The notes below the pieces were generated by a model, which had not been told where the DNA came from, did no database searches, and saw only the letters and a program-made list of their open reading frames with translations. From Crambe crambe (taxonomy: Eukaryota > Porifera > Demospongiae > Poecilosclerida > Crambeidae), in the NCBI GenBank assembly GCA_963924555.1, contig OZ004595.1, positions 4,272,599 to 4,336,598 on the forward strand: 64,000 nt of DNA, written 5' to 3'. The first letter of the stretch is position 1; each line of letters starts with the position of its first letter. The position numbers and the translations under genes are program-made. Below, in pieces: positions 25,805 through 47,132 of the stretch.

Positions 25805-27379
25805 ATGTCGACAAAGAAGTTTACTAAGCGTTTGCTCAGTGGAGCTATCCATCGCTCTATGCCGCTGATCATACCCAATGATACCAGCTACGATATCTCG
25901 ACCAACAAGTTGAATAAAATCCATGACGAGCGTCGCACCAGCCTCAAGCTGGTCCCTGAAACCCTACACCTATTGGAAAGCATCCAACGACCCCTAGCTG
26001 TCTTGGCAATAGGCGGACCGTGCCGTACGGGAAAGTCGTATGTGCTTTCACGGGCTCTAGGCTCACCTGATGCTTTTGCTCTCGGTCACACTATGGAAGC
26101 CCAAACGTTTGGTATTTGGATTGGAACGACTGTAATGGAGTGTGACGAGTTCACAGTTCTCCTGATGGATACTGAAGGGATCGATTCAACTAATGCCAAA
26201 GCCAGGGATGATGCTAGCATTCTAGTGATGACTGTACTTCTCAGTTCATACTTTATCTACAACTCAATTGGAGTTCCCAAAAAGAATGATTTGCAGAAAA
26301 TGAGGTATGGTGTAATGGATTACACATTGTTAATTTTATATTATAGCTACAGCTAAGCGACCTATCTCCACCACCGTTGGTTTGTGGTATATTGCTGTCC
26401 CCAAATAATGTACACAACCTATAGGTGCACTCTTCTCTAATTTAATTTTTCTTAGTCAATACTTTGAAATTACTTATCAAAAAGTGTTATGCAGTAAAGA
26501 ATATATTTGACAGGCTGTTTCTCCAGCTTTTAGATATTTGGGACTAGAAAGATAGCAAACCAGTTTTAGCTGAGGTTTGAAATTTCAATAGCACTTAGCC
26601 TTGACCCCAATAGAGCCTATAGTATCAATTGTTTGCGTATGAGTGTAGTATACAGGCAATAACCTGAAAGCTTACTGACTTTCTCTTTTTCTTTATTATT
26701 TTTTGTCCAGTTTTTCCATACCATTCGCTACTGCAGTAGCTAGCTACTTTTCCAAAAGACTGTCTTTAGTTATTGATTGGTGCTCAGATTATTTTTTCTA
26801 TTCCGTTTACGGAGAGTGTATACAAATTCCGAGGCTATGAATAACCGATACCAGGCTCTCTTTAGACAGGTCACAAAAGAGTACCTGGGGCTGAAGTGTT
26901 ACACTGAGCTACTGGGAGTGCATACAACACTCTCCCAGACCCACCTGGCATGCTATGTGCAAAGTAATACCTGACCACTTAATTTTTTGTCACTCTGCCA
27001 CTTCAAACGATCAATCTCTGTTGTTTTTGTTCATTGCTGTCATTTAGTCAATTCTCTGCATGTCATAGCTAATGTGCTTGATTTGCAAAGACACCCAAGA
27101 AGCATCAGCACTCTCCTCATGGTGTAGAGTTACTGCATAGTGACTGTGAGCCTGAGCCTAAGTCTGTTTAATACATTATTGTAGTAGAGCTTGTGTAGGC
27201 TAGCTAGCTCTAGAGGTGAATGCATGTGCATTGTGCATCAGCCTTTGGAGCTGTGCCTCACCACTCCTGGTGCCGAGATCAGCTCAGTTTAAACATTGGA
27301 GAGTATCGTCTAGACTTACTGAAATTGAAGCGCTCTAATCACTACTGGCTGTGTACATAGTCAACGTAACACACACACA

Positions 27380-27418
<39 letters not shown>

Positions 27419-29886
27419 GTGCACACACACACACACACAATTGAGTACTATAAACCTTGTGCATGCACTGAGGGTTAATAAAAAAGTACCACCTCAGGCA
27501 ATAATTGAGGATATCCGACCCCCCCCCCCCCCCAAGCTATAATATTGTCTTTTCTTTTATGTTGTTACTACAGCCACTTTGCTAAACTTGCAACATCAAT
27601 CGCTATAAAGGATGTGTCGGATCCTGAAACTTTTGAACTTAAAAATTACTTTCCCAACTTCCTATGGCTTCTTCGTGATGCTGTGCTCAAGGTTCCTTCT
27701 GGACAGACTCCAACTGACTATCTCAAGACAGTCGTACTTAAGCGTGGGAAATCCTTTGATGAAACAGCAAATGATAAGATTGGTCGGGTTATTCTGACAG
27801 TGTTTCCATCAATTGAGTGTAGGACAATCCAACCTCCTTCAGCAGATCCAGAAGTCATGCAGAACATTGTTGCAAAACAGGACAGCCTTGAGCCTCGATT
27901 CAATGAACAAATTGAAGATTTGATCAAGTATCTATTTCAAAACGTAAAAGCAAAGAGTGGCTTTATGGATGGAAAGCTGGTCGATGGTCCATTATTGGCA
28001 GCAATGGCCAGTCAATTCCTTGATGCTGTTAACAATCCTGATGCTATTCCCTGCATCACCGACACCTGGCAGACTGCTGTTGAGATAAGGTGCAAGAAAA
28101 TGCTGGATCAGATGACCCAGGAGTACATTGAAGAAATGAATGTAAAGATTGCTGATATAGGTCTTCCGATGGAAGAAGACTCGGTTTCTAAAAATGATTC
28201 ATCAAAGCCATGCACACTTTTTAGTTTGCATCGTTCAACACTTTTACAAAAGACAGAGCTTCTCTTGAAAAAAGTAGGTCACTTTATTAGTGGTCCCATT
28301 TCAAGTGCTGAAGGAGGTACATCCTCTTACAACAGGGAAACTCTCATTGCTGAACTTGAGAAACGAATTGCTGTTTTTTCAGAAGATACCATTTTACCAA
28401 TGGATGGCCCAAACATGCGAAAGAAGAAGGTGATTGGAGGGGCACTTTTCGAGTTTGTCCAGCATAACAATTCAGAATCTCGTTCATACTGCCATGCACT
28501 CTTCAAAAAGCTCTATATGAAAATTGAAGAGAAGATAGAAAAAGGAGATGAAAGCTACACTTTTGAGGAGCTCTCAAATGATCTAAAAATGCTACAGGAA
28601 GAATATCATCAAAAAGCTGTTGGTCCAGCAAAATGGGAGGTTTACACTGAAAAGGAATCATTCATCAAGTCTCAGGGAGAAAATTATAAACGCTTGCATG
28701 GTTTCAAGAAAAAGACTTTTGATGCACTTCAGAAGGCAGCAGAAGAAAAAGCCAGAAATGATCAACTAAATAATGTGCTGGACGAGCTTCAAATTCAGAC
28801 GAAAAATGATGCTGAGATGAACCAAAAGAAAATAGAGGCAATGGAAAAAGAGCATAAGGAAGAAATGAAAAATCTTCATAAAGAACAGGAAGAAAAGATG
28901 AAAAAAGATCATGAGAAATACGAAGACTTTATGAAGGCACAGCTTTCTGATATGGCAGAAATAACACAGGAGAATGCTAAGAGTATGAAAGAAGCATATG
29001 AAGAAAGGTTCAAGTCCATGGAAGCATTATATGAACAAAATCAGGAGGCACTAAAAGTTATGAATGCTTCAGTTTATGCAATGAAACAGGCTATTGAAAA
29101 TATGCGTAAGTTCATTTTCCACTTATACAGGAAGAGCTGAGCTTAAACTATACTTAATTTTTTGATTTCCTTATGATAATGCATGCCTTTTTGAAATGAG
29201 GCTCATAATTAATTGCACCTTTTCCTATCTATTATATAGCTCGTAAAACAACTTGCTTTGTGGCTGGTACTATGGTGAAACTGAGTGATGGACAAGAGTT
29301 ACCAATAGAAAAACAGAGACAAGGGATCAAAATACTTGCCTTGGGTGGAGAAACGACCACAATTACGTATGAATTCGTTCAGCATACTCTGAAAGAAGGG
29401 CAAAAGCTTTTTGGGTTCAATGATGACACACCATTTGCAGCCCTTCATCATCCCTTCTGGACGACTGAGGGATGGAAATGCCTAGATCCTGAAACAGCCA
29501 AGGAAGAGAATCCTGATGTTGACTTCAAGTTGTTACAAGTTGGCGATATCATCTTTCGCATTGCCCAAACAAACCCATTTCTCTATGAGCCTGTTAAAAT
29601 TCACAAATTCACATTTTTGTCACTTGAAGAGCCAACAAAAATTTATGGTCTTCACCTTGATGGGCCTCGCTCATACCACGCTAATGGCTATGCTGTCATG
29701 GCCAACTACCCAGTTCTGACCAAGAAAAGGATTCGTGAAGGGATGAAGAAACTCAGTGAAGAAGAGAAAGAAAGCTTGGCATTTGCTCTCTCATCTGCAA
29801 AAGTCGAACTTACGAAAGTTCTAGGCAGCTGGGCAGAAGATGCTCTTAGTGATCTAGGACTCACTACAAATGATATGGAGGACTGA
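25805..29886 (+). CDS. GBP gene 1: guanylate-binding-protein GTPase fused to a C-terminal Hint domain
   Basis: Exons 25805-26304, 27574-29105, 29240-29886 sum to 892 codons. The N-terminal large-GTPase domain has the P-loop GGPCRTGKSY (residues 70-79), DTEG (122-125), the GBP signature VLLSSYFIYNSIG, and the LRD nucleotide-contact motif (FLWLLRD) early in exon 2. A helical region follows, ending in a Glu/Lys-rich coiled coil (about 560-670). The last exon encodes a Hint domain, the self-splicing/self-cleaving fold of inteins and Hedgehog: nucleophile Cys683 in TTCFVAGT, a block-B-like LHHPFWTTEGW, LLQVGDIIFRI, and a YHANG...MANY end, followed by about 60 residues of helical tail. GBPs act in cell-autonomous immunity in vertebrates, usually membrane-anchored by a CaaX lipid. 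Here Hint replaces CaaX, suggesting autoprocessing or adduct attachment, which is inference. Long intron 1 (1.27 kb) holds CA and C microsatellites. Confidence 0.9.
27371..27439. repeat. (CA)n microsatellite in intron 1 of GBP gene 1
   Basis: About 30 CA units with small interruptions (ACATAC, ACGCGTGC). A pure C run follows at 27520-27534. Confidence 0.95.
29240..29883 (+). other. Hint-domain exon of GBP gene 1
   Basis: A single exon entered through a phase-1 intron (C|CT) encodes the whole Hint module plus tail. The stretch from GGGCAAAAGCTTTTTGGGTT (29399) to about 29845 is about 97% identical to the Hint exon of gene 3, whereas the first 155 bp of the exon are clearly diverged. In block B the residue expected to be Thr (TxxH) appears to be Ala, and the usual terminal His-Asn pair reads Ala-Asn. 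Confidence 0.8.
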
Positions 29887-30541
29887 GCTATGTTCTTGTG
29901 ACCGTATTCTTTGTAGCTAGCTATACAAACAGATGGCTATTGTGAGTTAGGATTTACCATGCATTCATGATTTGTAAACGCGGCTTAAATTGATGAATGA
30001 ATTCCCCACAACTGTGGTTTTATCTAAACAAACAGGATACTCTTATCTGGACCCAAGACCGGTCCTTATTTGGAAGTAGTAGCAGAGTATAGTGGTAGCT
30101 AGAACAATATATGCCTGGACCACAGCAGTATAACTCTATGAGCATATTCTTGTTGCAAAACTGGCTAGACCAAAGATACTGTAGATTTCATGTCCTATAT
30201 AATTATACAATCCATGCAGTTGTGTAAATCATAGAACAAAAATATATCCACCTATTCCCCAAATCTTCTTGACAATCAACCCGCAATGGACAGTAAGTTA
30301 GTACATTTGTGCAAACTGAATGTATCCATGCTAGCCTCGTACCAAGGCTCCCCTCCCCCTCCCCCCTCCCCCTCCCCCCCAAAAGGGCCTGGGTACAAGA
30401 CTAGTATCCATGCAGGAGATATTTTCTATCTGCCAACCAAATCCACCATGAAATTAGCATACTTCAAATAATTTTACAAGTATTATTAAATATGCTAGCT
30501 AGCTAACCAGAAAAGTAAAAATATCTACTTGTTTGGTGAAA
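29887..30541. other. Spacer between GBP genes 1 and 2 (convergent)
   Basis: No coding region. A short inverted phrase flanks a C/T-rich run: CTAGCCTCGTACCAAGG at 30331 and CCTGGGTACAAGACTAG at 30388, the outline of a small repeat element. Confidence 0.5.
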
Positions 30542-33500
30542 TCACATGATAGAACATGATGCTGCTGCTGTGGAAAAGAAAACACATTTAGCACAATCAG
30601 TCATTAGCTATAATGATTTAAATCATAACGTCTGTATCCCAATTATGATATGGCTACTTTATGCATGATTAGATATTTTTGTTTAATTACTCACCTACAA
30701 CTGCTGTTAGGGCTTTCTCTGCCACACTCACAAGCATATCACCCCAGCTATAGTGTCCATTTTGTGCACCTAATACATGTTCACATGAACACAAAAAAAC
30801 AAACAAAAACAACAAAACAATGCATTAGTCGATAACATCCATGCATGTCTTGCATAAGACCACGAAATTTACCCAAGCTGATGGCCACAATACTTGCCAC
30901 AACACCCATAACTTGAGTATATTAGGAGAGACCTTGTGACTACCAATATCTTGGCAAGATAATGGCTGATGGCCACAATACTTGCACCCATAACTTGACT
31001 ATATTAGGAGAGACCTTGTGACTACCAATATCTTGGCAAGATAATGATATAGCTAATCATAGAGTACTTTCTTACTTCCTTACCAGCAGTGTCAGCTGTC
31101 AATTTGTTCACTCTATCACTGAGGACAGAGATCTCTTCTTTATTTTGCGTCATAATTTTGTCCATCTTTTCCAGCATTGAGTCATGCTGCTCTTTCATCT
31201 CTTTCTGGTGTTCTTTTGACAGCTCTGCCATTTCTTGCATGTGTGCTTTTGTCAAATCTTCATACTTTTTGCGATCCAATTCTATTCGATCTGCTTCTTC
31301 CTTGTGGAGTCGTTTCATTTCTTCATTGTGTTCATTCTGAATTGCTTCCATCCTTTTCTGGTTGAGTTCAGCATCATTCCTCATCTGTACTTGAAGCTTG
31401 CCGACATTATCAGCAAGTTCAGCTGCTTTGGCTCTTTCATCTGCTGCTTTCTGAATTGCTTCAAAACTCTTTTGTTGGAATCCTTTTAATAATTTAAAGC
31501 TCTGTTTCTGACTTTGAATAAATCCTCGCTTCTCATTGTACACTTCCCATTTTGCTGGACCGACTGCTTTCCTGAAGTAGTCGAGTTGCAGCGTCTTTAA
31601 ATCTTGAGAAAGTTCATCAAAGGAATATTGCCCACTAGAAATTTTCTCTTGTATTTTTTGCTCATATAATTTCTCAAAAAGAGTGTGACATGCAGACCGA
31701 GATTTTGAGCAGTTTTGCTCAGCAAACTTCAAGAGAATTCCTCCAATCACTTTCTTTCTCTTCTCCTTAACTGGCTGTGCCTCGATCTCTCCTACCACCT
31801 GCTCTTCGTCAAATCTGGCAGTGCAGTGGTCAAGCTCAGCTACAAGACTCTCCTTGTTGAAGGTATCTGTGGAAGCACTCACAAGATGACTCACTTGATT
31901 CAAAAGAGTTTCAGTCTTTTTAAGCAATATAGAGCGGTGTATTCCAAACAGTGAGCAAGGCTTTGCAACTGCATCATCAGGTGAATCTTCTTCTATTGGT
32001 AAACCCACATCAGAGATGTGTATCTCAATTTCTCTGGTATATTCTTCGATCATATTTTTCAAAACTTGCTGGCATCGTTTCTCAACTGCAGCATTCCATG
32101 TGTCATTAATACATGGAACTGCATCTGGATCATTAACTGCCTTGAGGAAATCATCAGCCATAGCTGCTAAAATTGGGCCATCTACCAAATTTGAGGTAGC
32201 AAATCCTTTCTTGGTTCGAACACGTTGAAGTAAGTATCGGACAAGTTGCTCTACTTGTTCATTGAATTTTGGATCAAGACTGGCTTTTCTTCTTGCAATA
32301 TCTCGCACCACCTCAGGATTGCTTGAGGGTGACTGGATCGATTTGCACTCAATGGTTGGGAAGAAGGTTAAGATTGCTCGACCAACTTCATCACTTCTAC
32401 TTTCTTTGAATGACTTGCCACGACGCAGCACTTTGCTCACCAAGTACTCGGTGGGGGTGACCTCTGACCCATTATCCCCTGTCGGTAGCAGATGGACATC
32501 ACGTAAAAGCCAAAGGAAATCTGGGAAGTGTTTTTTGAAGTCAAAAGCATTCTCGTCCCCCTCAGATGATTTCTTCACCACAATGGAGCTAGCAAGGTTT
32601 GCAAAATAGCTGCAAAACAAAGAAGTAAGAATCAGAGTGTATCTTATATTATAACATGGACCCTAACATTGCAAGTTAGAGTATGAAAGACCAGTCTTTA
32701 CACTATACACATAATAAAACAATAAATTCTGGCACTGCATGTGTCTCATACCTGATCAGTACTAAAAGGAGTTGGAGTAATTCTAACATGTAGCTACATA
32801 ATTATTAACTATAATATGTGCATTATTCAGGAGTTTAACTTTTCTAATCACACCATAGCAGTGACTTGCCTTATTCTGTAGATTCTAATTAAAGTGCCAG
32901 ATGTTAAAAATATTTAATGCACTAATGGAGTTACACCAATAGAGAGCCAAGGTCACACTTTCACTGCCAAAAAGGTTTTAAAGTGTGACCTTGGTGATAT
33001 CACTGTAAAAATGAAAGTGTTTACTGTCCCAATGCGCACACTGTTTTGTTCTTAGTGTGTGTGTGTGTGTGTGTGTGTGTCTTGGGATAATTTAATGTGC
33101 AGTACACACTTTCAATTTTACAGTGTAGCTATAATCAGAAAACCCATTATGGTACTAACACAAGAAGCACTGCTATGTAAACAATCAGAAGACGCCATTC
33201 ATGCAGCTCTCATGCATGCTCTTATCATGATTGGTCTGATAAATACACCTAGCTACTCCAAGTGGTCATGCACCTTTACAGTTGCCAGAGAACATAGAAA
33301 TTTGATAAAATACTAGCTAGCTAAAGGTATACAGCTATAATCTCTGCAGAATAAATGTTAAGTGTTTGAAATTGTGACCTCCTTGGCAGCTACTGCTGGT
33401 GGGGAAGAGGATGCTACAATCACCATTTTCAATCTTGAACAATGTTAATCATTGATAGTATTATAGCATAATGGAGCCACAAACCCACTTGAAAACCATA

Positions 33501-33996
33501 TACTAATGCAAAAATCTGGTCATTATCACCTGTCTGTCATCAAATTTCTTCATCAAAATGTGCAGTGTGAGCAACTGGGCCAGCATCCAAACATAAAACT
33601 GATAAACTGACATATTATAGCTAAAATTTATTTAGCTACTAGCTATAATAATTAAACACCTTTGAAATATTTTTAAACTAAGGAAATGCAAGCACTGTGG
33701 CAAGCGAAGCTTAATATCTGATGATATCACCATGCACATCACAAAGGACGGAACCGGAAGAACGTGCTTACGACTATTGCCCTCTCATTCGACCTCCTAG
33801 TGGTTCGCTTCGCTTGCAATAATATATAATAATAATGATAATAATAATAATAATAATTCAAACTCTGCTTATTATTCTCAGCTAACATGATAAAAATTCA
33901 ATCGAATTTTTGTATCACCCTGATGAAGGCTAGAGTATTCTGGTCGAAACGTTGGTGGTTTGTTTCATAAGCTAATTTTATGAGAACTAATTCTAT

Positions 33997-34067
<71 letters not shown>

Positions 34068-35154
34068 ACTACCAAGTAGAAAATTAATAAAAAATTTGTT
34101 TCTGCTCTTACATGGACTCTAGAGCTTCATTCTTCCCATCTCTGTATTCACTACTGTCATGAAATTACACGCCATCTTCTCTTTCTCAGCCATTGCTCAG
34201 CAAACACATGCAGGTAGTTCAGCCAGTGGAACCATTTTTCCCCTAGCTACATAATTAGACGTCACGTACTAACGTGTTATATCGGCGACCCTTATCTAAT
34301 TCATGCATGCATGCCAGGAGATAGTCTCGTCCCCAGACCCTACCAGGAGATAGTTCTAGAACAGCAAAGAGTCGTGTGGAAAAATCACTAACAACTAAGG
34401 TGGGTTTTCCAGCCTATTATCTGTGCTACCTTCAGTACCTTGTTGCTCATACCTTGATGCTCATAGCTTTGTTGCTCTTCCCTAGGCTTTTCTTCAGCTA
34501 GCACAATAGATGGAAACCCCACCCCTTGTAAAGCTTATGCATGTGATATATAACCTTTACCAAAATTCTAGCTAACTGCTCAAAATTCTACTTGGTATGC
34601 AGTTGGCCCTTGTAATAACAATAATAGCATGCCACCCCTTCATACCTCATTTGCTCCAAGTCAGTATGATGGGGGACTCCAATAGAATTGTATATGAAGT
34701 GTGAGCTGAGAAGAATAGTCATCACCAAAAGACACGCATCATCTCTGGACTTTGCAAAGACAGAGTCGATGCCTTCTGTATCCATCAAAAGAATCGTGTA
34801 CTCACCATGATCAAGAACAGTAGTTCCTATCCAAATGCCCAGAGTTTGGGGATCATAGGTATGCCCGAGGGCAAAATCATCAGCGGAACCAAGCATTCGC
34901 GAGAGTATGTACGACTTTCCACTGCGACACGGTCCACCAATGGCCAACACGGCCAATGGACGTTGTATAGTTTCTAGCAGGCGAAGTGTTTCTGGAACAG
35001 TCTTGAGGCTAATACGCTTCTCGCCAGGGATTTGCACGAGCGTGTTGGTGGAAATATCATAGCGAGTATCGTTGGGAATGATGAGCGGCATAGACCGGGG
35101 AACAGATGAAAAGTTGGGATGTATGAGAGAGCGTTTTGTAGCCGTAGAAGACAT
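30542..35154 (-). CDS. GBP gene 2: guanylate-binding-protein GTPase ending in a CaaX box (CSIM)
   Basis: Exons 35154-34646, 32609-31084, 30769-30695, 30567-30542 sum to 712 codons (711 aa). The GTPase domain has GGPCRSGKSY, DTEGID, ILLSSHFIYNSIG and FLWLLRD. The helical and coiled-coil regions follow as in gene 1, with which it shares exon structure. After the same phase-1 intron the C-terminus differs: a small exon (GAQNGHYSWGDMLVSVAEK) and a final 8-codon exon ending AAASCSIM-stop. CSIM fits the C-a-a-X prenylation signal; a terminal Met favours farnesylation. Human GBP1, 2 and 5 end in CaaX boxes, so this is the canonical architecture. The 2-kb first intron holds MITEs, AAT repeats and a hammerhead ribozyme motif. 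The gene starts 61 bp from gene 3, divergently. Confidence 0.9.
32945..33125. mobile_element. Small palindromic elements in intron 1 of GBP gene 2
   Basis: CCAAGGTCACACTTT at about 32947 pairs with AAAGTGTGACCTTGG ending near 32996. Immediately after, ACTGTAAAAATGAAAGTGT (33002) pairs with ACACTTTCAATTTTACAGT (ending near 33124) around a (GT)n tract. The second element has a relative at 61838-61948 with the same TGTCCCAAT / GTACTGCACAC blocks. Confidence 0.7.
33815..34067. repeat. (AAT)n microsatellites flanking a ribozyme motif
   Basis: AAT/TAA runs at about 33822-33857 and 34001-34065 bracket the hammerhead motif. This is the usual tail context of a retroelement fragment. Confidence 0.85.
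33915..33958 (+). ncRNA. Minimal type-I hammerhead ribozyme motif (Penelope/retrozyme type)
   Basis: All hammerhead core elements are present in order: stem I strand UCACC (33915-33919), CUGAUGA (33920-33926), a six-pair stem II GGCUAG/CUGGUC around loop AGUAUU with two G-U pairs, GAAA (33946-33949), a very short stem III (C-G), cleavage triplet GUU, and the other stem I strand GGUGG (33954-33958). Minimal hammerheads with tiny stem III are known in Penelope-like retroelements, so this is probably the remnant of one. It lies antisense within intron 1 of GBP gene 2. Confidence 0.75.
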
Positions 35155-35215
35155 ATTTGAACTTTAAACTCGTATCGAGCCACACCCTTGTTGGATTTAT
35201 GTCAACGAACTAAGA
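35155..35215. promoter_or_regulatory. Shared divergent promoter of GBP genes 2 and 3
   Basis: Only 61 bp separate the start codons of gene 2 (minus) and gene 3 (plus). There is no TATA box; the segment includes ACTTTAAACTCG and GAGCCACACCC. Transcription start sites must lie within or very near this gap unless unseen 5' exons exist, so co-regulation is likely. Confidence 0.6.
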
Positions 35216-38200
35216 ATGGAGGACGGTGGCTCTGATCGTGTTGCTGGAAAGGCGCTTAAAACACCGCCTAAATCATTACCAAAACCAACCAGTCGAGAAC
35301 GCTCTCGTAGCAGTGCAGGGTTTATAGACACGCAGTCACTCAAGAAGCCATCATTAGTTGGGAAGGGTATAAAAAGTGATGCAAATGAGTGGAAGATGAG
35401 AGCCTTAAACTTTCACGACCAAGTTGTGAAGGAAGTTGAAAGATTAATTCAAAATGTTGAGGACAAAGAAGTTTTAAATAAAGCATGTGATCTCCTTAAA
35501 AAAGTGCAGGTTCCCCTGAAAAGTCGTAATAAGCTGACTCCAGAAAAATTTGTGGAGAAAACAGAGCCTGTGGTGACACTTTTGCAAAGAATAGAACTTC
35601 AACATCCAGCAGTTCTTCGACCTCCACCTGTGTAAGTCATTTTATGTGCATGGGTATTGGTGTCTTTGTGGAATGCTTGAATTCGGCTAGCTATATGGCC
35701 AAAACTACATCAAAACCAGCTACAATAAGTACCTGGTCGCAGGCCATCTCATGTTGGAAACCCAGGATTGCAAGAATTAACTCATGACTTGCTAACATAT
35801 TCCAATAAAGAGTTCCTATGGAAATTTTGCCTACCTACTGTTATTTATTGTTATGGCATTATAGTATAGCCTTGTCCCCAGGTCATTCCACGCACAATTA
35901 TTATGGAATCGCCTGCATGGGGATGAGCATTAATTTTCTGAACTTTAGACTTATCTGTCCTATTAAGACTCTAGTATTTGATTGTACTAGATAGCTTTAC
36001 TTCAACCACATTGCATGCATGTCTAGAGCATGCACATACTACCAGTCTCCAAATTAGGTCAAGGCACATTGTCCACTACCTATAGCTATAAGTTGCCTTG
36101 AATTACTGGAATTAGCTAGCTACAAAGAATTTTCACAACAACAACACCCGAAAACAAAACAACCATAAACTCATAACTCAGTATAGCTATTTTAGCAAGA
36201 ATTGCAGCTGTTTCTTGTATGCAGTTTATCGCTATCAAGAGCCACGAGCTATAGCTATATGCTGCAACTTAATAGCAACCAATTTGCATTAAATTTTAGA
36301 AGCCAGTGTACTGTAAAATCACGCAAAGGCTGGTGAATTTCACAGCTTTGCAGTGATCCCATGCAATTTGAGGTTGTTGTTTAAGAAATTGACTGTATAT
36401 TGATCATGTAGGAAGGAAAAGAAGAAAAGAGTAAGTGTACCGAATGTTGGCCATCTAACACCAGCACAGTTACAGCAGTTAAATCTTGAGTCGACTATCA
36501 TGTCCAACTATTACCAAAGCTATGATGTTCCAGTAGCCGGTGATACAACGGGTCAACTTGGCAAAGGTTCTGCAATACCACTTTGCTATCCAAATGACAT
36601 GGAATGGGATCCAAAGCGAAACAAATGCAGACGTCTGAAAGATGTAGAACGAAAAAAACTCATACTCAATCCTCAAGCCTTGGAGATTTTGCGATCAATC
36701 TCTGGTCCTGTTTGTGTCATTGCCATCGTTGGTCCATGTCGTTCAGGAAAATCTTACATCCTGAGTCGTCTGATCAGCAGCAAAGGAGAGAAGTGTCATT
36801 TCGATCTTGGCCATGAGATGGATCCCAAAACAATGGGCATTTGGATGTGGGACCAGCCCTTCAAAATGAAGCTGAGTGGTTGCGAGGAGGAGGTTACAAT
36901 CATCTTGCTTGACACCGAAGGGATAGATGCTGCAAATGCCACCGATCAAGGAGACAGTCAGATATTTACTCTCAGCGTTCTGCTGAGCTCCTTGATGATA
37001 TATAATTCAATGAATGTGCCAAAACGTGAGGATCTTAACCAGATGCAGTATCCTATAAAGTTAATACATATGTCCAGTACAAGTAATCCTATTACATTAT
37101 AGAACATGCAACAAAAACAGTTTGGTTGTTATAACTAATGCATATTGGTTATTTTAGCTAAATATAGTCACTTGAGTTGAAACTCGGGTAACCAGGTTTA
37201 ACCCAATATTCTTGCAGAGAGTCTTTATATAGAGTGTCCAAAGATGGTCTTATATAATTTAAAGTATATACTTAATTAATATAATACGTAATAAGAACAA
37301 AGCTGTCCAGTGTTGACCTTTACAAGCTGTTACCAGTTTTGTTGCTAATCTCTCTAAGAGTATTCAAGTGCAGGCTGGGAGATCGGCAACAGGAGAGGAA
37401 GGGATGAAGATGGCAGATTCCAATCCCAGATTCATGTGGCTCCTCAGAGATGTGATCTTATGTCCAACGGATAAGAATGGAAGGCCATGTCACATCAAAG
37501 ATTATCTCTTACAGAAGGTAGCAATGCCATAGGAAAGAAGGCTTCTATAGAGATTTATAGCTATTGTAAGAAAAATCGCAAAAAAAATTACACACCAAGT
37601 AGAAAAATCTGTATACATTTTAGACATCATCTAAAGCTATGAGGGAAACTTCTAGTCCTGTGCCAGTGGAGCTATTAAATTGTCAGACCATCTGACCTTA
37701 GTTGCTTAGACCCTCGTAGGGTTTTAAAAATTCTGTAAACACCAAGGTTTTCCTATAGGGGATTGAACTCCTTTCACTATGGATGATATTGTTTGATGTC
37801 GGCACTTCCTTATAGGTTCTTGTAGAAGATACAACAGATGATGAAACACAAAAGGAAATCAGGCAATGCATTTTGAGCTTCTTCTGTGCATTTGATGCTG
37901 AAACACTGCCTCCTCCTTCCACTGATGCTAATGTTATGTGGAATATTGAGGATCCTCGCTACCAGAAGGATATCAGCCCAGCATTTATGAGGCAAGTGGA
38001 GTATGTCAGAAAGAAAATTTTTAACAACTGTGCTCCAAAGAAGGGATTCACCGGAGGAAGTGTTGTCAGTGGATTACGTACGTTCAATATTGTAGTATTA
38101 TGACCCAGTAGTACACTGTAACATACTCATGCAAACTATGCATGCAGGTGGTTTGAAGTCAATTTTAGGAGTTTAATTAGGAATAGTTTAATGGTCACAC

Positions 38201-41200
38201 TGCAGCAATTAACTTAGTAAAACTTTGGTTATATAGACTAGTGATCTTGCAGAACAGCAAAACCAAAATTTACATAGCTAACCTCCTTTCAGGGACTTTA
38301 TAACTGTGGCCTTGGAGCCGGTCTACTTAAAAGGAAACTATGTGTAAATTTTGGTTTGATGTCATATTGCAAGATCACTGCATTCCACTGCTAGTGATAA
38401 CATTGGTTCTACATCTGATGTTCTGATTCTTGGAGTGAGACCACCAGAGAGAAATCTTGTTTGATACACTGCAAAAAATTTTGGCCATAAATTATTGGCT
38501 GTTTAATAGTTACCCAGGTTTTGCTTTTATTACATGCAGAGCTTGCCCACATGGTTGAACTGTATGTTGATGCCCTCAACTCTCCTGATGGTATTCCAGT
38601 GATTGGTTCCACATGGCGACGTGTACTGGAAGCCACCTACACAGATGGCATGGAAAATGCAGCCAAGATCTACAGTGAAAAAATGAAAAATACTGTCCAT
38701 TTACCTATGGAAGATGAAGATCTGCTGAAGTGTCACAGGAAAGGAGTGGAAGAGGCAATGAAAAAGTTCAATCAGGCGGCTTCACTGGACAGTGAGAGTG
38801 AGCTCTATCAAACTTACCTCGACAAACTTATGGTAATTAGCTATCACCATAGTAATACTATTATGGATGCAAGCCACACCCATTATAGGTGTATAAGCAG
38901 TTGAGAAATACAGTGGAACTTAAATACACTTTGGGATCAGCTAGTTCAATTTTATTAGCAGTATTTTTGCTTCCTTGAAAACATCAAGGTTTTCTGTATT
39001 GCATCCTGAGTTCACTGTATAGTCTGGACATATGTAGCTACTGTTATGATTGTCGTCAAATAGAATGGAGAAATTAACCGCTCCTGTGTCAGACTCTCAT
39101 TTTGAGACTATTTGAGTTTTCCATGTTATTGTGCAGGCAAAATTAGCTGAGTTTGATGAAAATGGAGATTGTAAGAGTGGCCAACTAGCACTATACCTGG
39201 AGAAAAACCATACAGAATCTAAATCAGTATGCCAAGCTCTTATGAATTCCCTGAAGGAAAAATATCTTGATCCCTTGACTAAAAGTCTCTCTCCACAAAC
39301 TGACTTCAGAAAGATAGAGAGTGCCTTTATAAGTCTAATCTCTGCTTACAATGAAACGTGTGTTGGTCCAGCTTCACATGATGTACTGGATGCATTCATA
39401 CAGGTAAGAACTATGTCTGTGCTTATTATACAATCTATACTCTTAGAAGCTGCATCTCACACACACATTTATTACTGTAGGAAGAAGAGAAACAACGAGA
39501 ATTCTTGGAAACCCAACTAAAAACAATCAAAAACTATGATGACCAGGCAAAACTGAGAATGAAAGAACTGAAAGAGCAACAATGTCTCATGGAACAGAAA
39601 GAGGTAATACAATTAGTGTACAGCAGTAAAGCTATGTCACTTATAAAGTGTTAGCTATGGTAGTTTATTTTTTATAGATTGAAATGAAGCAACGTATGGA
39701 ACAATCCAAGATCGATCAAGAAGCAAAGGTTAGCTGTATTCTATAGTTATCATCATAGTAGGACTGAAGCATGCACATGCATGCAGTACAAACCATACAG
39801 CTTATACAATGCATGATTTTAAAAAAAGCTTTGAGTATCACAGTAGCTAGCTATGGTTTATGTAGTTTTTCATCATTATTAGCTTCAAGCATTGAAGAAT
39901 AAATTTGCTATGGATGCTGAGAATTTGCGACAACAAAATGCAAAGCAGATGGAGGAGCAGGAAAAGAGGCTTCAGAACATGACAGTAGCTAACCTTCAAA
40001 AACTAAGAGACGAAAATTCTCAACAAGTGGCTCAGTTGAGGAGAACCTTGGAGCAGAAGGAGAGAGAACTGCTCGGGCACAATGAAAGACTAAATGCTGA
40101 GATTCGAAGGAAGCAAGCAGAAGCAGCACAACTAAGACAGCAACAAGAAGCTGCACGGCACAGGAAAAAGGGAGGTGAGGCTACTTGCACCCTGTGATCT
40201 GTTTTAGGCTGTAAAATGAGAAGTGCCCATTGTTGTTCATGGCAGCATGCAGGTGCCCTACCTCTGCAATGGTATTCTGCATATTATCAGAGAGCAGTAG
40301 CTCTCTTTATGTAGCACGTGCCGCATAATAATACAAAAGTGAAATTCTAGACTTAACAAAAGCTACTGTGAATGATTATCCAGCCTACTAGAGCCTACTA
40401 CAAAGTACAGACCACGGGGAGCTTACCGTTTCACTATTCTTCTTCTTCTTCTTCTTCTTAGATAACCATATCTCTCGAACCACTCAAGCTACAGCTATGA
40501 TTTCTGGATAAATCCACTCCAAATTCTTCCAGCTACGATCTTTTGTATTCGTCAATCCTTGAAAGAGTCGATGTAAATGGAGGCACAGTACTCGACTAAC
40601 CTAATTATCGGAAGCCTTTTTTTCTTTCAATAGTACGGATGCGCATGTATCTGATATGAAGGATGGAAATGGGATCAATCTTTGTTCTGTATATCCAGCC
40701 AACAATCCCTATATATACATCAGGTAGCTTCAGATTATAGTGCAGTAATTTATGTAGGGATAGTTGGCTGGATATATACAGAACAAAGATTGATCCCATT
40801 TTCCCTACCCTTGTTTCCTTACTTTTTCGAGCAATGGTCATCCCTACATTTTTTTCTTCCTTCATTTCACAGAAATATTTTTCCCCTTTCTCTCTTTATG
40901 GTTTTATGTAGCTATGTACGCTTTATTCTATGTGCATGCAGAAACAGAAGTTTCTTGAGATGTATAGTTCTCCAATAGCATGATATCAACTTGAAGTGTT
41001 GAGCCATAGCTAGTAAGTTGGAGGCAGATAGAGTCTACCGGTAGATGGATTGATGAATCTAAAATCCCCGAGTTGATAGAGTAGTCTATGATCTAGCATG
41101 CACATAGTCACATAATATATCTAGATCTAGCTAGCTGAGTAATATTATAATTTTGGGATTGTTTCCTTACTTTTACAAGCATTGGTCATCACTACATTTT

Positions 41201-42618
41201 TTTTTCATTTCATGAAAATGTTTTTTTCCAATGTACATATTTTTTTAATCACTATTATAGTGAGCTAACGTTTATGATGGTCATAGCTATAGCTTGTTTG
41301 CTTTCAGCTTTCTCAGGACTTGTGACTTTATACCTTCTTTTCTTACTACTTAAAGACTACTGGGTGGGGAGAAGCCCCCCCCCAAATTTTTTATGTTCAT
41401 AAGGTGAAAAAAATTTAACTACAAAAAAGTACTACTGAGGTTGTTACCTGTGGTCACCAAAGGGAGTAATTAAGGACCAATTTAGGATACTTCAGAGTAG
41501 TAAGCTTTTTTGGCTTGCTTCGCATGGGAGGGGGATCCCTCCCATACCCTCCCCCTTGCCGTGGCTTACGGCCACACAATCAGTAATCTTCCCCCAAGGT
41601 GAAATTTCTAGATGAAACCCAGGGTTTCTCGTAGAGCTGGCTCTCTTGCAGATGATCTTGAGCTTTGTACCCAGGAGGTTATTCTATTATTGCTTCGTTG
41701 TTTTGTCTCAAAGGTCCTATCTTCATCATTCACCACAGACTTTCCCAAAAGAGCTGTATATGAAGCTGGTATTTTCCAACATGCACGCTCTACTGCACGC
41801 ATGAGCAGTAGATTGACATTTTCAATACACGGGGGTGGACAGGAAAGAATTATTCTATTAATAGTGGCCTTATCATTGTAACATTGTCCTTTGTTCAGAG
41901 AGTGTTCTTTATTGGAATGTCACTGTAGCTACTAGCTATGATCATTCATACTCACAACTTCATACTCTATATAATTTTCACAGGCTGTTTCATAGCTGGT
42001 ACTAAAGTGGTGCTTACAAGTGGAATTGACTTTAGCATCGAAAAACAGACCGGAGGATTGAAGATTATGGCAATGGCTGGTGAAGTTACAACTATAACGG
42101 ATGAATTTGTGGATCATGTCCTGGATAAAGGGCAAAAGCTTTTTGGGTTTAATGATGACACACCATTTGCAGCCCTTCATCATCCCTTCTGGACGACTGA
42201 GGGATGGAAATGCATAGATCCTGAAACAGCCAAGGAAGAGAATCCTGATGTTGACTTCAAGTTGCTACAAGTTGGCGATATCATCTTTCGTATTGCTCAA
42301 ACAAGCCCATTTTTCTATGAGCCTGTTAAAATTCACAAATTCACGTTTTTGTCACTTGAAGAGCCAACAAAGATTTATGGTCTTCACCTTAATGGGCCTC
42401 GCTCATACCACGCTAATGGCTATGCTGTCATGGCCAACTACCCAGTTCTGACCAAGAAAAGGATTCGTGAAGGGATGAAGAAACTCAGTGAAGAAGAGAA
42501 AGAAAGCTTGGCATTTGCTCTCTCATCTGCAAAAGTTGAACTTACGAAAATTCTAGGGAGCTGGGCAGAAGATGCCCTTGATGATATGGGACTCACTACA
42601 AAATATATGAAAGAATGA
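35216..42618 (+). CDS. GBP gene 3: N-extended guanylate-binding-protein GTPase fused to a Hint domain
   Basis: Ten exons (35216-35631, 36412-37047, 37337-37517, 37816-38077, 38540-38832, 39137-39403, 39481-39603, 39678-39728, 39883-40174, 41984-42618) sum to 1,052 codons. The first ~150 residues are a Ser/Pro/Lys-rich extension with a helical part not present in genes 1 and 2. The GTPase follows: VGPCRSGKSY, LLDTEGIDA, VLLSSLMIYNSMNV, FMWLLRD. The helical domain and a long Gln/Glu/Arg coiled coil (exons 7-9) lead to the Hint exon, entered through a phase-1 intron. The junction reads KKGGCFIAGT: Gly-Cys-Phe is exactly the autocleavage triplet of Hedgehog, with Cys842 as nucleophile. Block-B-like LHHPFWTTEGW and a YHANG...MANY end match gene 1. 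The gene is more finely split by introns than genes 1 and 2, so it is an older paralogue. Confidence 0.9.
38238..38382. mobile_element. Palindromic MITE in intron 4 of GBP gene 3
   Basis: AGTGATCTTGCAGAACAGC...ACCAAAATTTACATAG (38241-38278) is matched in reverse complement by CTATGTGTAAATTTTGGTTTG...GCAAGATCACT (38338-38380). It would form a long hairpin and has no coding capacity. Confidence 0.75.
40664..40804. mobile_element. Long palindromic (fold-back) element in the last intron of GBP gene 3
   Basis: AATGGGATCAATCTTTGTTCTG...CCAGCCAACAATCCCTA (40669-40711) pairs with TAGGGATAGTTGGCTGG...CAGAACAAAGATTGATCCCATT (40757-40800), giving arms of about 45 bp. A phrase just downstream (TTTCCTTAC...AATGGTCATCCCTACATTTTTTT, 40816-40855) is repeated at 41164-41205. 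Confidence 0.75.
41984..42615 (+). other. Hint-domain exon of GBP gene 3
   Basis: One exon holds the entire Hint module and C-terminal tail, as in gene 1. From 42129 to about 42575 the DNA is nearly identical to 29399-29845, with about a dozen differences by eye. Upstream of 42129 it diverges sharply. Confidence 0.8.
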
Positions 42619-43214: not shown

Positions 43215-43695
43215 CTGTGCGTACAACATATTTGAAATTCTTCAAATTCTGTTACGTCATTAAAGGGTTATTACCATATCTCAAAAAACCATCAGGGGGA
43301 TTTCTATGAAATTACAGAATACAGTATATCCCTACGACATATTTAAAATTCATAGAATTACATTAAGGGGGTATTACCATAATACCATCTCTTAATAATA
43401 ATTATATATCCCTACGACATAATTATATGAATTCTGTTAAGTTATTAATGGGGTTATCACCATAATACCATATCTCTAAAACCATTAAGTCGATCATTAA
43501 GGGTTATTAGCTACCATAATATCATATCTCAAAAACCATCGGGGATTTCTATGAAATTACAGATATACAATATACTAGTATATCCCTATGACATAATTCT
43601 TCTTATTCTGTTAACTCATTAAGGGGTTATTACCATAATACCATATCTCGAGAACCATCACATACATACGTACATATCTCAACCAAAGCCTTATA
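43215..43695. repeat. Degenerate tandem repeat (ATTAAGGGGTTATTACCATAATACCATATCTC)
   Basis: The phrase TTATTACCAT(AATACCAT)ATCTC with neighbouring ATATCCCTACGACATA recurs about five times at irregular spacing of about 65-130 bp. Non-coding. Confidence 0.7.
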
Positions 43696-44637: not shown

Positions 44638-47132
44638 ATGGCTAGTCCAGTGCAAGAAGGATGGAAGAGGAATGCTGGTTTTATAAAGGGACCAGGAATT
44701 CCTGCTCCCTCGGGACAGTACAGAGTGGGTTGTGTGGACCTAATGTACCAGCTGGAGGGAGATGATAAAGGAGGTCTGCTCCTTCGTCTCCACTACCCCA
44801 CAGATGCCACACCAGAGGCAGGCTATTCTTACAGTTTGTGTACTCCTCATTCAAGATATATTAAGGGCTATTATGAGTATCAGAGTTCAAAATTTCCTGG
44901 ATTAAAGGCTAGTGTGCTCTCAGTTCTAACATGTAAGTTGACACTATTATCTAGCTAAATGTTTCCAGCTAGCTATCAAGTTCTTCATTTCTTTCATAGC
45001 TCCCAAAATACCAGCCTTGGAAGGAGCACCCTTGTTTGGAAACAATAGTGAAACCACAAGTGAGGACCATTCCCACTGTCGATAAGGTTAAGGGTGGTGT
45101 AACAAGTTAGATGATTCATAGGCTTGAGCCTAATATGTTTTATTATGCTTTGAGCAATTCCCATGAAAGCTACCTGTTATGCTCAAAATTATGCTTGAGT
45201 TATGCCCACAATTTAGTTGTAGATTAATTAAGGTCACCTGTCAAACTGAATAGTAAGTAGTCCATGGCAGCTGTATTAGAGTAGGAGTGATAATGCACAA
45301 CAGAATAAAGTAATAGACTTAGAAGCTGCTGAGGATTAATCGTCTTTTGAAGGTTGTGCTTGCCTGTAGCTACATGCATAGGAGCTATTACTAAAATTTG
45401 CAATTGGAGAGCCAAGAAAAATACCTCCAGGCCAGGAGGTGTAGAAGATTAATATACATTAAAAACATATAGCCATATGCATCTATTATGGCCAGAATGT
45501 CAGATATTTTGCTCTAGCATATTAGGCTCAAGCCTATGATGAGTGGTGTTACTACACTGGCAGCATGATAATATATTAGGAAATGTGTTTCATCTCTAGA
45601 AGGGAATATTCTACTAAGCCCATATTCTGCTATGAGGTTAGGGGAGCAAAGTTACATCAAGCTGGCAGCCTCATACAAAGGCAGCCTCATACAAATTAAC
45701 TAATGTGACTTTGTTCCCCTAACTTCATAGTGTTACACCACCCACCCTTAATAATCATCATCATCATTAATTTTGTAAAGCTCCTCCCACATTTCCCATT
45801 GTCGTGTTCTCCCACGGTCTTGGGGCTATGCGTTCTCCCTACAGTGCGATAGCCTGTGATCTTGCTTCCCATGGCTATGTGGTAGCATGTGTGGAACATA
45901 GGTACAGTTAATAAGTAGCCATGCAGGGAGTGAGTAAGTCTTTTGTTGTAGGGATGAGTCGGCTTGTGTGACATTGCAGAGAGTTCCCAAGCCAGGGGGG
46001 AAGGAGGGAGAGTTGCAGGATAAGTGGATTGAATATCGCCATACTCCTCAGCGTGATGAAAAAACAGACATTAATTATTCATTGAGAAAGGAACAGGTGA
46101 GTATCAGTATCATTTTCTTATCCCCCCCCCCCCCCCCCCCACAAAGATTGACTGTTGATATTTCTTAAGGTCAAGCAACGTGCTGATGATGCAAGGAAAT
46201 CCTTGGATGTTCTCTACTTGTTGAATGAAGGAGCAGAAATCAATGACATGCTTGGAGGTAGTTATGACTTCAAGCAGTTCAAAGGTCGTTTGGATGTTGC
46301 TACAGCAGCCATTATGGGGCACTCCTTTGGTGGGGCCACCACAGTCCAGACACTCTCAGAGGACACCAGATTCAAGTGGGTTATAGCTCCAGGGCTTACT
46401 GTAATATGCAATGTTCTTTCTCTGTTGACAGGTGTGGCATTGCATTGGATAGTTGGATGGTACCAGTAAGAGAAATCTGTGAAAATCCATCCAGTGTGAC
46501 TCAACCACTCTACTTCATCAATAGCTACAATTTCCAGTGGGAATTAAATCTACAACGAATGCTTTCCCTGACTACGCCACCTGATGCCAACAGTATGACT
46601 CCATGCAGAGTCCTGACATTGAAGTATGATGATATTATTTCATTTCAGTGGGTGGGGTTTTATGCCAGTGTGAGTGGGTGGAGTTTATGCTTAGTGTGAG
46701 TGGGTGGGGCTTATGCTCAGTATGAGTGGGTGTGGCTATGCTCAGTGTGAGTGGGTGTGGCTTGTGCTGCAATGTGCCTTTTAATCTCTTGCCTGCCTGT
46801 AGGGGCACTAACCACTTCAATCAATGTGATCTCTACTTCACAATGCCACAATTTTTGACTCGCTCTCTACAACAAGGAAACTTATCTCTGGATGCAGTGA
46901 CTGCCCACCAGGTCAATACAAAGATCTGCCTTGCCTTTTTCAAGCGACATCTCTTGAAGAGTAAGAATAGAAAATTGTAATCTGAATGATGTCATGAAAT
47001 TCACATCCATCAGCTTCCCAGGGACCTGAACCAAACCTGGATGGGACTGAGGGTCATTCTGAACACATCCTATTTGGAACCAATCCGTCCTGCACGAAAG
47101 AGGGAGGGAACGAGAGAGGAGGGGAAATATGA
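44638..47132 (+). CDS. Platelet-activating-factor acetylhydrolase (group VII/VIII PLA2-like, PAFAH2-type)
   Basis: Eight exons (44638-44932, 45000-45059, 45781-45901, 45952-46096, 46170-46375, 46432-46623, 46803-46960, 47014-47132) sum to 432 codons. The enzyme removes the acetyl or short oxidised acyl chain from the sn-2 position of PAF-like phospholipids. Family landmarks: [27 protein letters not shown] (FSHGLG oxyanion region), nucleophile Ser in GHSFGGATT, catalytic Asp in ALDSWM, catalytic His in [10 protein letters not shown]. There is no signal peptide ([12 protein letters not shown]), so the cytosolic PAFAH2-like form is more likely than the secreted plasma enzyme. Intron 2 contains a TTAA-flanked MITE; intron 6 contains 26-bp tandem repeats. 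All frames and splice sites agree, so the gene looks intact. Confidence 0.9.
45092..45747. mobile_element. 656-bp MITE with TTAA target duplication, in PAF-AH intron 2
   Basis: GGGTGGTGTAAC at 45092 and GTTACACCACCCACCC ending at 45747 are inverted repeats. Longer inner arms include CATAGGCTTGAGCCTAATATG (about 45119) and CATATTAGGCTCAAGCCTATG (about 45518). TTAA flanks both ends (45088-45091, 45748-45751). TTAA duplication occurs in piggyBac and Kolobok elements; the superfamily is not settled here. Confidence 0.75.
46640..46775. repeat. ~26-bp tandem repeat (GTGAGTGGGTGGGGCTTATGCTCAGT) in PAF-AH intron 6
   Basis: Four to five copies with small changes. It occupies most of the intron and ends just before the acceptor region. 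Confidence 0.85.

Follow-up and report, generated by a model that had tools for sequence, protein, structure and literature searches.

GBPs work at membranes, and several reach them by prenylation. The CaaX box is a feature of the prenylated members; it is not universal, and the family is not defined by it. C-terminal Hint domains have been described on immune-type GTPases of another family, namely AIG1-family GTPases of the coral Acropora millepora (PMC3723955) and the snail Biomphalaria glabrata (PMC7053062) and GmGIN1 of Glomus, in which a Hog domain is joined to an AIG1-like GTPase (PMC2362128), as far as the available portions of these reports describe them. In the accessible text of two further reports, bacterial intein-like (BIL) domains, which lack a nucleophile at position +1, yield mostly cleaved products (PMC7664689) and give activated ubiquitin-like proteins (PMC9200820). 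Here we analysed a 64,000-nucleotide stretch of the sponge Crambe crambe (contig OZ004595.1, positions 4,272,599 to 4,336,598; hereafter the window), which holds three linked GBP genes. We consider it likely that two of the encoded GBPs, those of genes 1 and 3, bear a C-terminal self-processing, BIL-like Hint domain and a conserved helical tail in place of a prenylated CaaX box. This reading is built directly on gene anatomy, a modelled fold, active-site conservation, an exon pair at a common phase-1 boundary and a GBP-Hint frame elsewhere; from these we infer the self-cleavage chemistry.

The gene models were built from the genomic sequence of the window alone, and all introns are GT-AG. Gene 1 (plus strand, three exons, 892 aa) encodes its GBP GTPase and coiled coil (residues 1–677 plus one base) in exons 25805–26304 and 27574–29105, and its Hint domain and helical tail (residues 678–892) in a terminal exon at 29240–29886. 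Gene 2 (minus strand, four exons, 711 aa) has its GTPase and coiled coil in exons 35154–34646 and 32609–31084, followed by a 25-residue exon 3 flanked by phase 1 on both sides (30769–30695) and the terminal CaaX exon (30567–30542). Gene 3 (plus strand, ten exons, 35216 to 42618, 1051 aa) carries an N-terminal extension, GTPase and coiled coil in nine exons spanning 35216–40174 (35216–35631, 36412–37047, 37337–37517, 37816–38077, 38540–38832, 39137–39403, 39481–39603, 39678–39728 and 39883–40174), and its Hint domain and tail in a terminal exon at 41984–42618. None of the three has an internal stop. Pfam matches to GBP (144.7, 152.7 and 159.2 bits for genes 1, 2 and 3; cut-off 21.1) and to the helical domain GBP_C (43.2, 29.6 and 82.8 bits; cut-off 24.3) exceed the cut-offs throughout, and AIG1 is absent from the Pfam matches. 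An earlier note on this DNA, made from the letters alone, had described three linked GBP genes; they read as described, with the spans it gave, although it did not mention the minus-strand orientation of gene 2. It also had each terminal module entered in phase 1, as is indeed the case in all three genes, gene 2 having two such introns, one ahead of the 25-residue exon and one ahead of the CaaX exon. Residue 678 of gene 1, from which it counted the terminal module, is the start of the exon, and the nucleophile Cys is residue 683.

The genomic origin of the models, the 1.8-kb last intron of gene 3 and an in-frame Met upstream of its Hint frame, within that intron, would be compatible with Hint exons that are separate genes or pseudo-exons, unspliced to the GTPase exons. 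However, the Hint exon of gene 1 has no Met in its own frame ahead of Cys1, so that its nucleophile depends on the upstream exon, and phase-1 donor and acceptor match in both genes. Single-frame fusions also argue against separate exons. P0001, a 741-residue frame, combines precomputed GBP and GBP_C domains with a Hint domain 73% identical to that of gene 1. A six-frame search of the 143-Mb genome found two copies of the Hint exon, a lower bound, both in the window; P0001 therefore comes from another genome, and the GBP-Hint frame, which the earlier note had suggested looking for in other sponges, occurs beyond this one. P0103 (579 aa) joins, in a single frame, this Hint module to a coiled coil and an AIG1 GTPase domain scoring 46.8 bits (cut-off 27). 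Taken together, unspliced Hint exons are extremely unlikely. By eye, the P0001 frame seems to continue across a short open intron ahead of the Cys.

The terminal exons were assigned to the Hint fold by structure rather than by single-sequence profiles. All four motifs noticed earlier (CFxAGT, HPFW..EGW, QVGD and YHANG) are present in both exons, just as gene 2 ends AAASCSIM as claimed. A Pfam check of the terminal residues gave less: the gene 1 exon alone scores 16.2 bits against PF01079, below the cut-off of 29.7, and the gene 3 exon alone has no Pfam Hint match at E <= 1. With the exon alone as query, matches in Pfam, NCBIfam and (by single sequence) the PDB were not strong enough to establish a fold. 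PF01079 likewise returned zero matches in the whole genome, missing both window exons, and is thus no gauge of the genome's Hint content. In contrast, the predicted structure of the exon (pLDDT 88) returned a Hint fold, with BIL2 the closest match and Hedgehog (1at0) more distant. By structure model and fold comparisons, then, the terminal exons are identified as Hint domains; 'BIL-like' denotes likeness of fold and motif.

The active site comprises Cys683, His748, Asp780, His824, Asn833 and Tyr834 in gene 1, and Cys842, His907, Asp939, His983, Asn992 and Tyr993 in gene 3. Homologs were collected as 77 proteins (including P0004, gene 3's own frame, and P0003, 100% identical to gene 1), with 29 more added later; residues were counted over 78 rows, with P0004 dropped and P0003 kept. 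Cys1 is present in 39 of the 39 rows that reach the site, the remaining 39 beginning downstream. The block-B His (76/76 covering rows), the GD Asp (77/77) and the YHAN His, terminal Asn, +1 Tyr and +2 Pro (each 78/78) are likewise invariant. Gly or Ser occupies position −1 in 36/39 rows, the codon being partly intronic where the frame enters from an intron. The Hint region was found in 26 of the 29 later homologs, all of which keep Cys1 and Asn, with Tyr at +1 in 25 and Phe in one, the bacterial-type P0092. The fold, the N-terminal nucleophile Cys and the block-B His place the exons in the Hint superfamily. The penultimate His and the Cys, Ser or Thr at +1 that characterise inteins are absent, Tyr occupying +1 in all 78 rows, whereas an ending in Asn without a +1 nucleophile is that of BIL domains.

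Among the four GBP genes read here, gene 2 (CSIM) and a disrupted fourth gene (CSLL) end in CaaX; genes 1 and 3 do not. Gene 4, a paralogue of gene 3, lies just left of the window on the minus strand (L042:2340-9080; G000:C18). Seven stretches of it, reaching as far as the coiled coil extends, align with gene 3 (77–93% identity in DNA), and its last exon, behind a phase-1 acceptor, codes for DTSCSLL. This exon and the bases following it resemble gene 2 around its CaaX exon (88% over 42 columns; E 2e-6). Gene 4 is probably a dead copy, as its coding sequence contains an in-frame stop and changes frame. A hidden CaaX exon was sought beside genes 1 and 3, where 82 and 198 candidate acceptors, respectively, gave one weak Cys-x-x-x ending each. 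As positive controls, the true exon was recovered for gene 2, with one further chance ending, and for gene 4, at 1 of 134 acceptors.

Body identity is 55% between genes 1 and 2 and 32% between genes 1 and 3, but the latter pair share 85% identity in their Hint exons. DNA identity between these exons is 38–67% over the first part and mostly 93–100% over the remainder, and synonymous divergence (dS) falls from 1.57 (46 codons, near saturation) to 0.109 (164 codons), a pattern expected of gene conversion. Since the gene 1/2 pair and the gene 3/4 pair each include a Hint and a CaaX member, both GBP subfamilies, as read from these sequences, have had both endings at the same phase-1 boundary. This would fit endings swapped by exon exchange; it would also fit descent from a gene that had the two exons as alternatives, later sorted.

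In the mechanism that we favour, Cys1 (Cys683/Cys842) would attack the preceding carbonyl, helped by the block-B His (748/907), to form a thioester. With Tyr at +1 and no penultimate His, this would be resolved mainly through cleavage at the Cys1 bond, by water or another nucleophile. The GBP would be freed from the Hint domain and tail with a new C-terminus, and cyclisation of Asn833/Asn992 may also remove the 59-residue tail. The acceptor of the thioester end could be water, an amine or a lipid. By analogy with activated ubiquitin-like proteins, the activated GBP could be passed to an amine or lipid, and the GTPase would thereby attach itself, through its new C-terminus, to membrane lipid or protein at the infection site, a single-use, E1-free route replacing prenylation; we think this unlikely.

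Several observations weigh against self-processing in place of a CaaX box. The fusion is known from genomic sequence, and cleavage activity is predicted. Both window genes have Ala in place of the block-B Thr (kept in 12/77 rows), and all 78 rows lack the penultimate His (Ala 64, Met 13, Glu 1), losses that could leave activity weak or abolished. The exon's Pfam scores as a single sequence fall under the cut-off, and gene 4, the CaaX-bearing sister of gene 3, carries disruptions, so that the CaaX form in that subfamily may be a dead copy. The lost residues would suit a Hint fold retained for another role, such as binding or oligomerisation, without self-processing. However, the residues of the fold's reaction, Cys1, block-B His and Asn, are invariant in the covering rows, bacteria included, and a non-processing role is quite unlikely. 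According to part of one report, several inteins are still active without conserved His residues (PMC7664689).

Alternatively, intein-like splicing would excise the Hint domain and ligate the tail or another C-terminal stretch to the GBP. The terminal Asn and F-block His are kept, and a cited study, by its title, has a BIL domain ligating without a nucleophilic side chain. Nevertheless, neither the Tyr at +1 nor the Phe of P0092 is a usual splicing nucleophile, and splicing is very unlikely. The earlier note had proposed the Hint exon as an alternative to CaaX for either processing or lipidation: exon exchange fits and self-cleavage is favoured, while lipidation has fared worse. In a Hedgehog-like reaction, the thioester, with the helical tail presenting a sterol or other lipid alcohol, would give a GBP lipidated at its C-terminus, a precise substitute for CaaX. 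Yet the closest fold is BIL2 and not Hedgehog, PF01079 stays under its cut-off, and the same Hint domain and tail occur in proteins of bacteria, which mostly lack sterols. Hedgehog-like lipidation thus appears distinctly unlikely.

Full-length relatives join a different N-terminal domain to the same Hint domain and helical tail. Named bacterial sources are a Spirochaetota metagenome-assembled genome (MAG; P0002), an uncultured Paludibaculum (P0083) and a Legionella sp. MAG (L009), and P0100 comes from a eukaryote collection. A fold search of the bacterial N-terminal domain gave a match list filled by Hint entries. Scanning genome contigs with P0002 as query gave zero confirmed relatives, and scanning with alignment A2 gave four loci. 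Nine distant loci on viral contigs were excluded from trees. The sole PADLOC match was weak and fell in the Hint portion of L009.

The first tree held 100 rows: two from the window, 93 of the 106 collected proteins and five from four bacterial loci. Of the 13 proteins removed by a motif filter, eight were full-length and bacterial-type with a variant motif; adding these and dropping P0003 and P0004 gave a fuller, midpoint-rooted tree of 106 rows. Here a 60-row clade (100/97) containing the window exons sits within a 70-row clade (100/98), which also includes N-domain-Hint proteins (P0060, P0061, P0069), some on large contigs, and is sister to a 29-row group holding named bacteria (84/73); P0100, P0073 and P0076 lie outside both. 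In the 100-row tree the window clade was nested, at an open fork, in bacterial-type rows; as this became a sister relation in the fuller tree, a direction of transfer was withdrawn. The trees suggest that horizontal transfer of the Hint module, in either direction, followed by capture as an exon is likely, with MAG labels, long branches and the midpoint root adding doubt.

Several further features were recorded. Pfam's model for AXH (ataxin-1/HBP1) recognises the HPFW..GW..GD segment of related Hint domains (33.3 bits, cut-off 33, in Olivibacter, L012:7800-9100; 28.4 in P0100) and 3 of 49 members of Hint alignment A1; from these matches, a link between AXH and Hint is possible. In L009 (1488-5216 and 7995-10853), a 952-residue Hint relative carries a further C-terminal domain, and a nearby 1242-residue frame resembles, by eye, a filamentous-haemagglutinin protein. 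The first 150 residues of P0101 and P0102, ahead of N-domain and Hint, look beta-trefoil-like by eye and have no Pfam match at E <= 0.01. Within the window, an 88-column direct repeat (92% identity) lies near the intron between exons 2 and 3 of gene 2 (30877-31046), imperfect direct repeats (78–88% identity) directly follow gene 3 (43236-43659), and an open frame at 44641-44935 (plus strand) resembles, by eye, the start of a platelet-activating-factor acetylhydrolase gene. A pattern for the silicatein active site, a possible sponge marker, matched four cathepsin-like sites, which neither favours nor disfavours the sponge attribution. Genome-wide, 20 exons match GBP (PF02263; contigs C18, C19, C11, C3, C16 and C13). 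AIG1 (PF04548) has 96 matches at E <= 0.001, part of them to other GTPases, since the model also matches in 12 of 14 control genomes; these matches suggest a large GIMAP-like expansion.

A predicted self-cutting, intein-like tail at the site of the sister genes' lipid anchor suggests an unexpected finishing of an immune protein. The paralogues differ chiefly in the terminal exon, CaaX or Hint, and raise the question of whether autoprocessing can replace prenylation in localising an immune GTPase; given this exchange, membrane delivery is the first outcome of interest for a processed GBP. The occurrence of AIG1-Hint proteins in coral, snail and fungus, together with P0103, points to repeated joining of immune-type GTPases and Hint domains, and the locus as a whole points to a self-processing module also present in bacteria being used as an exchangeable exon.

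Among described systems, the AIG1/GIMAP-Hint GTPases, in the portions of the reports available, resemble genes 1 and 3 in joining an immune-type GTPase to a C-terminal Hint domain. They differ in having AIG1 instead of GBP and in being described by a Hint/Hedgehog or Hog model, whereas the exon here is nearest BIL and under the PF01079 cut-off; exchange with CaaX is not described in those portions of PMC3723955, PMC7053062 and PMC2362128. In agreement with the earlier note, no GBP-Hint or GBP-intein fusion was found in open-licence papers, and two articles on sponge immunity make no mention of 'guanylate' or 'GBP' in their main text: the GBP would be new as GTPase partner, and an immune-type GTPase with a C-terminal Hint is a known kind of protein. 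The nearest folds, BIL2 of the Tetrahymena BUBL locus (6y75, 6tmm) and a Clostridium BIL (2lwy), share Cys1, block-B His and terminal Asn with genes 1 and 3, in which the penultimate His is replaced. The host protein of the BUBL BIL, in the accessible text, is intracellular and eukaryotic as well (PMC9200820), but that BIL sits between ubiquitin-like domains, while the Hint domain here lies at a GTPase C-terminus with a helical tail. The Hedgehog Hog domain (1at0) shares the Hint fold, Cys1 and a region after Hint; in contrast to it, genes 1 and 3 keep the terminal Asn, have bacterial relatives and match its fold more distantly. The bacterial N-domain-Hint proteins (P0002, P0083, L009) have the same Hint domain and tail behind another N-terminal domain. 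Finally, CaaX GBPs share GBP and GBP_C with genes 1 and 3, but where genes 2 and 4 end in CaaX, genes 1 and 3 end in Hint.
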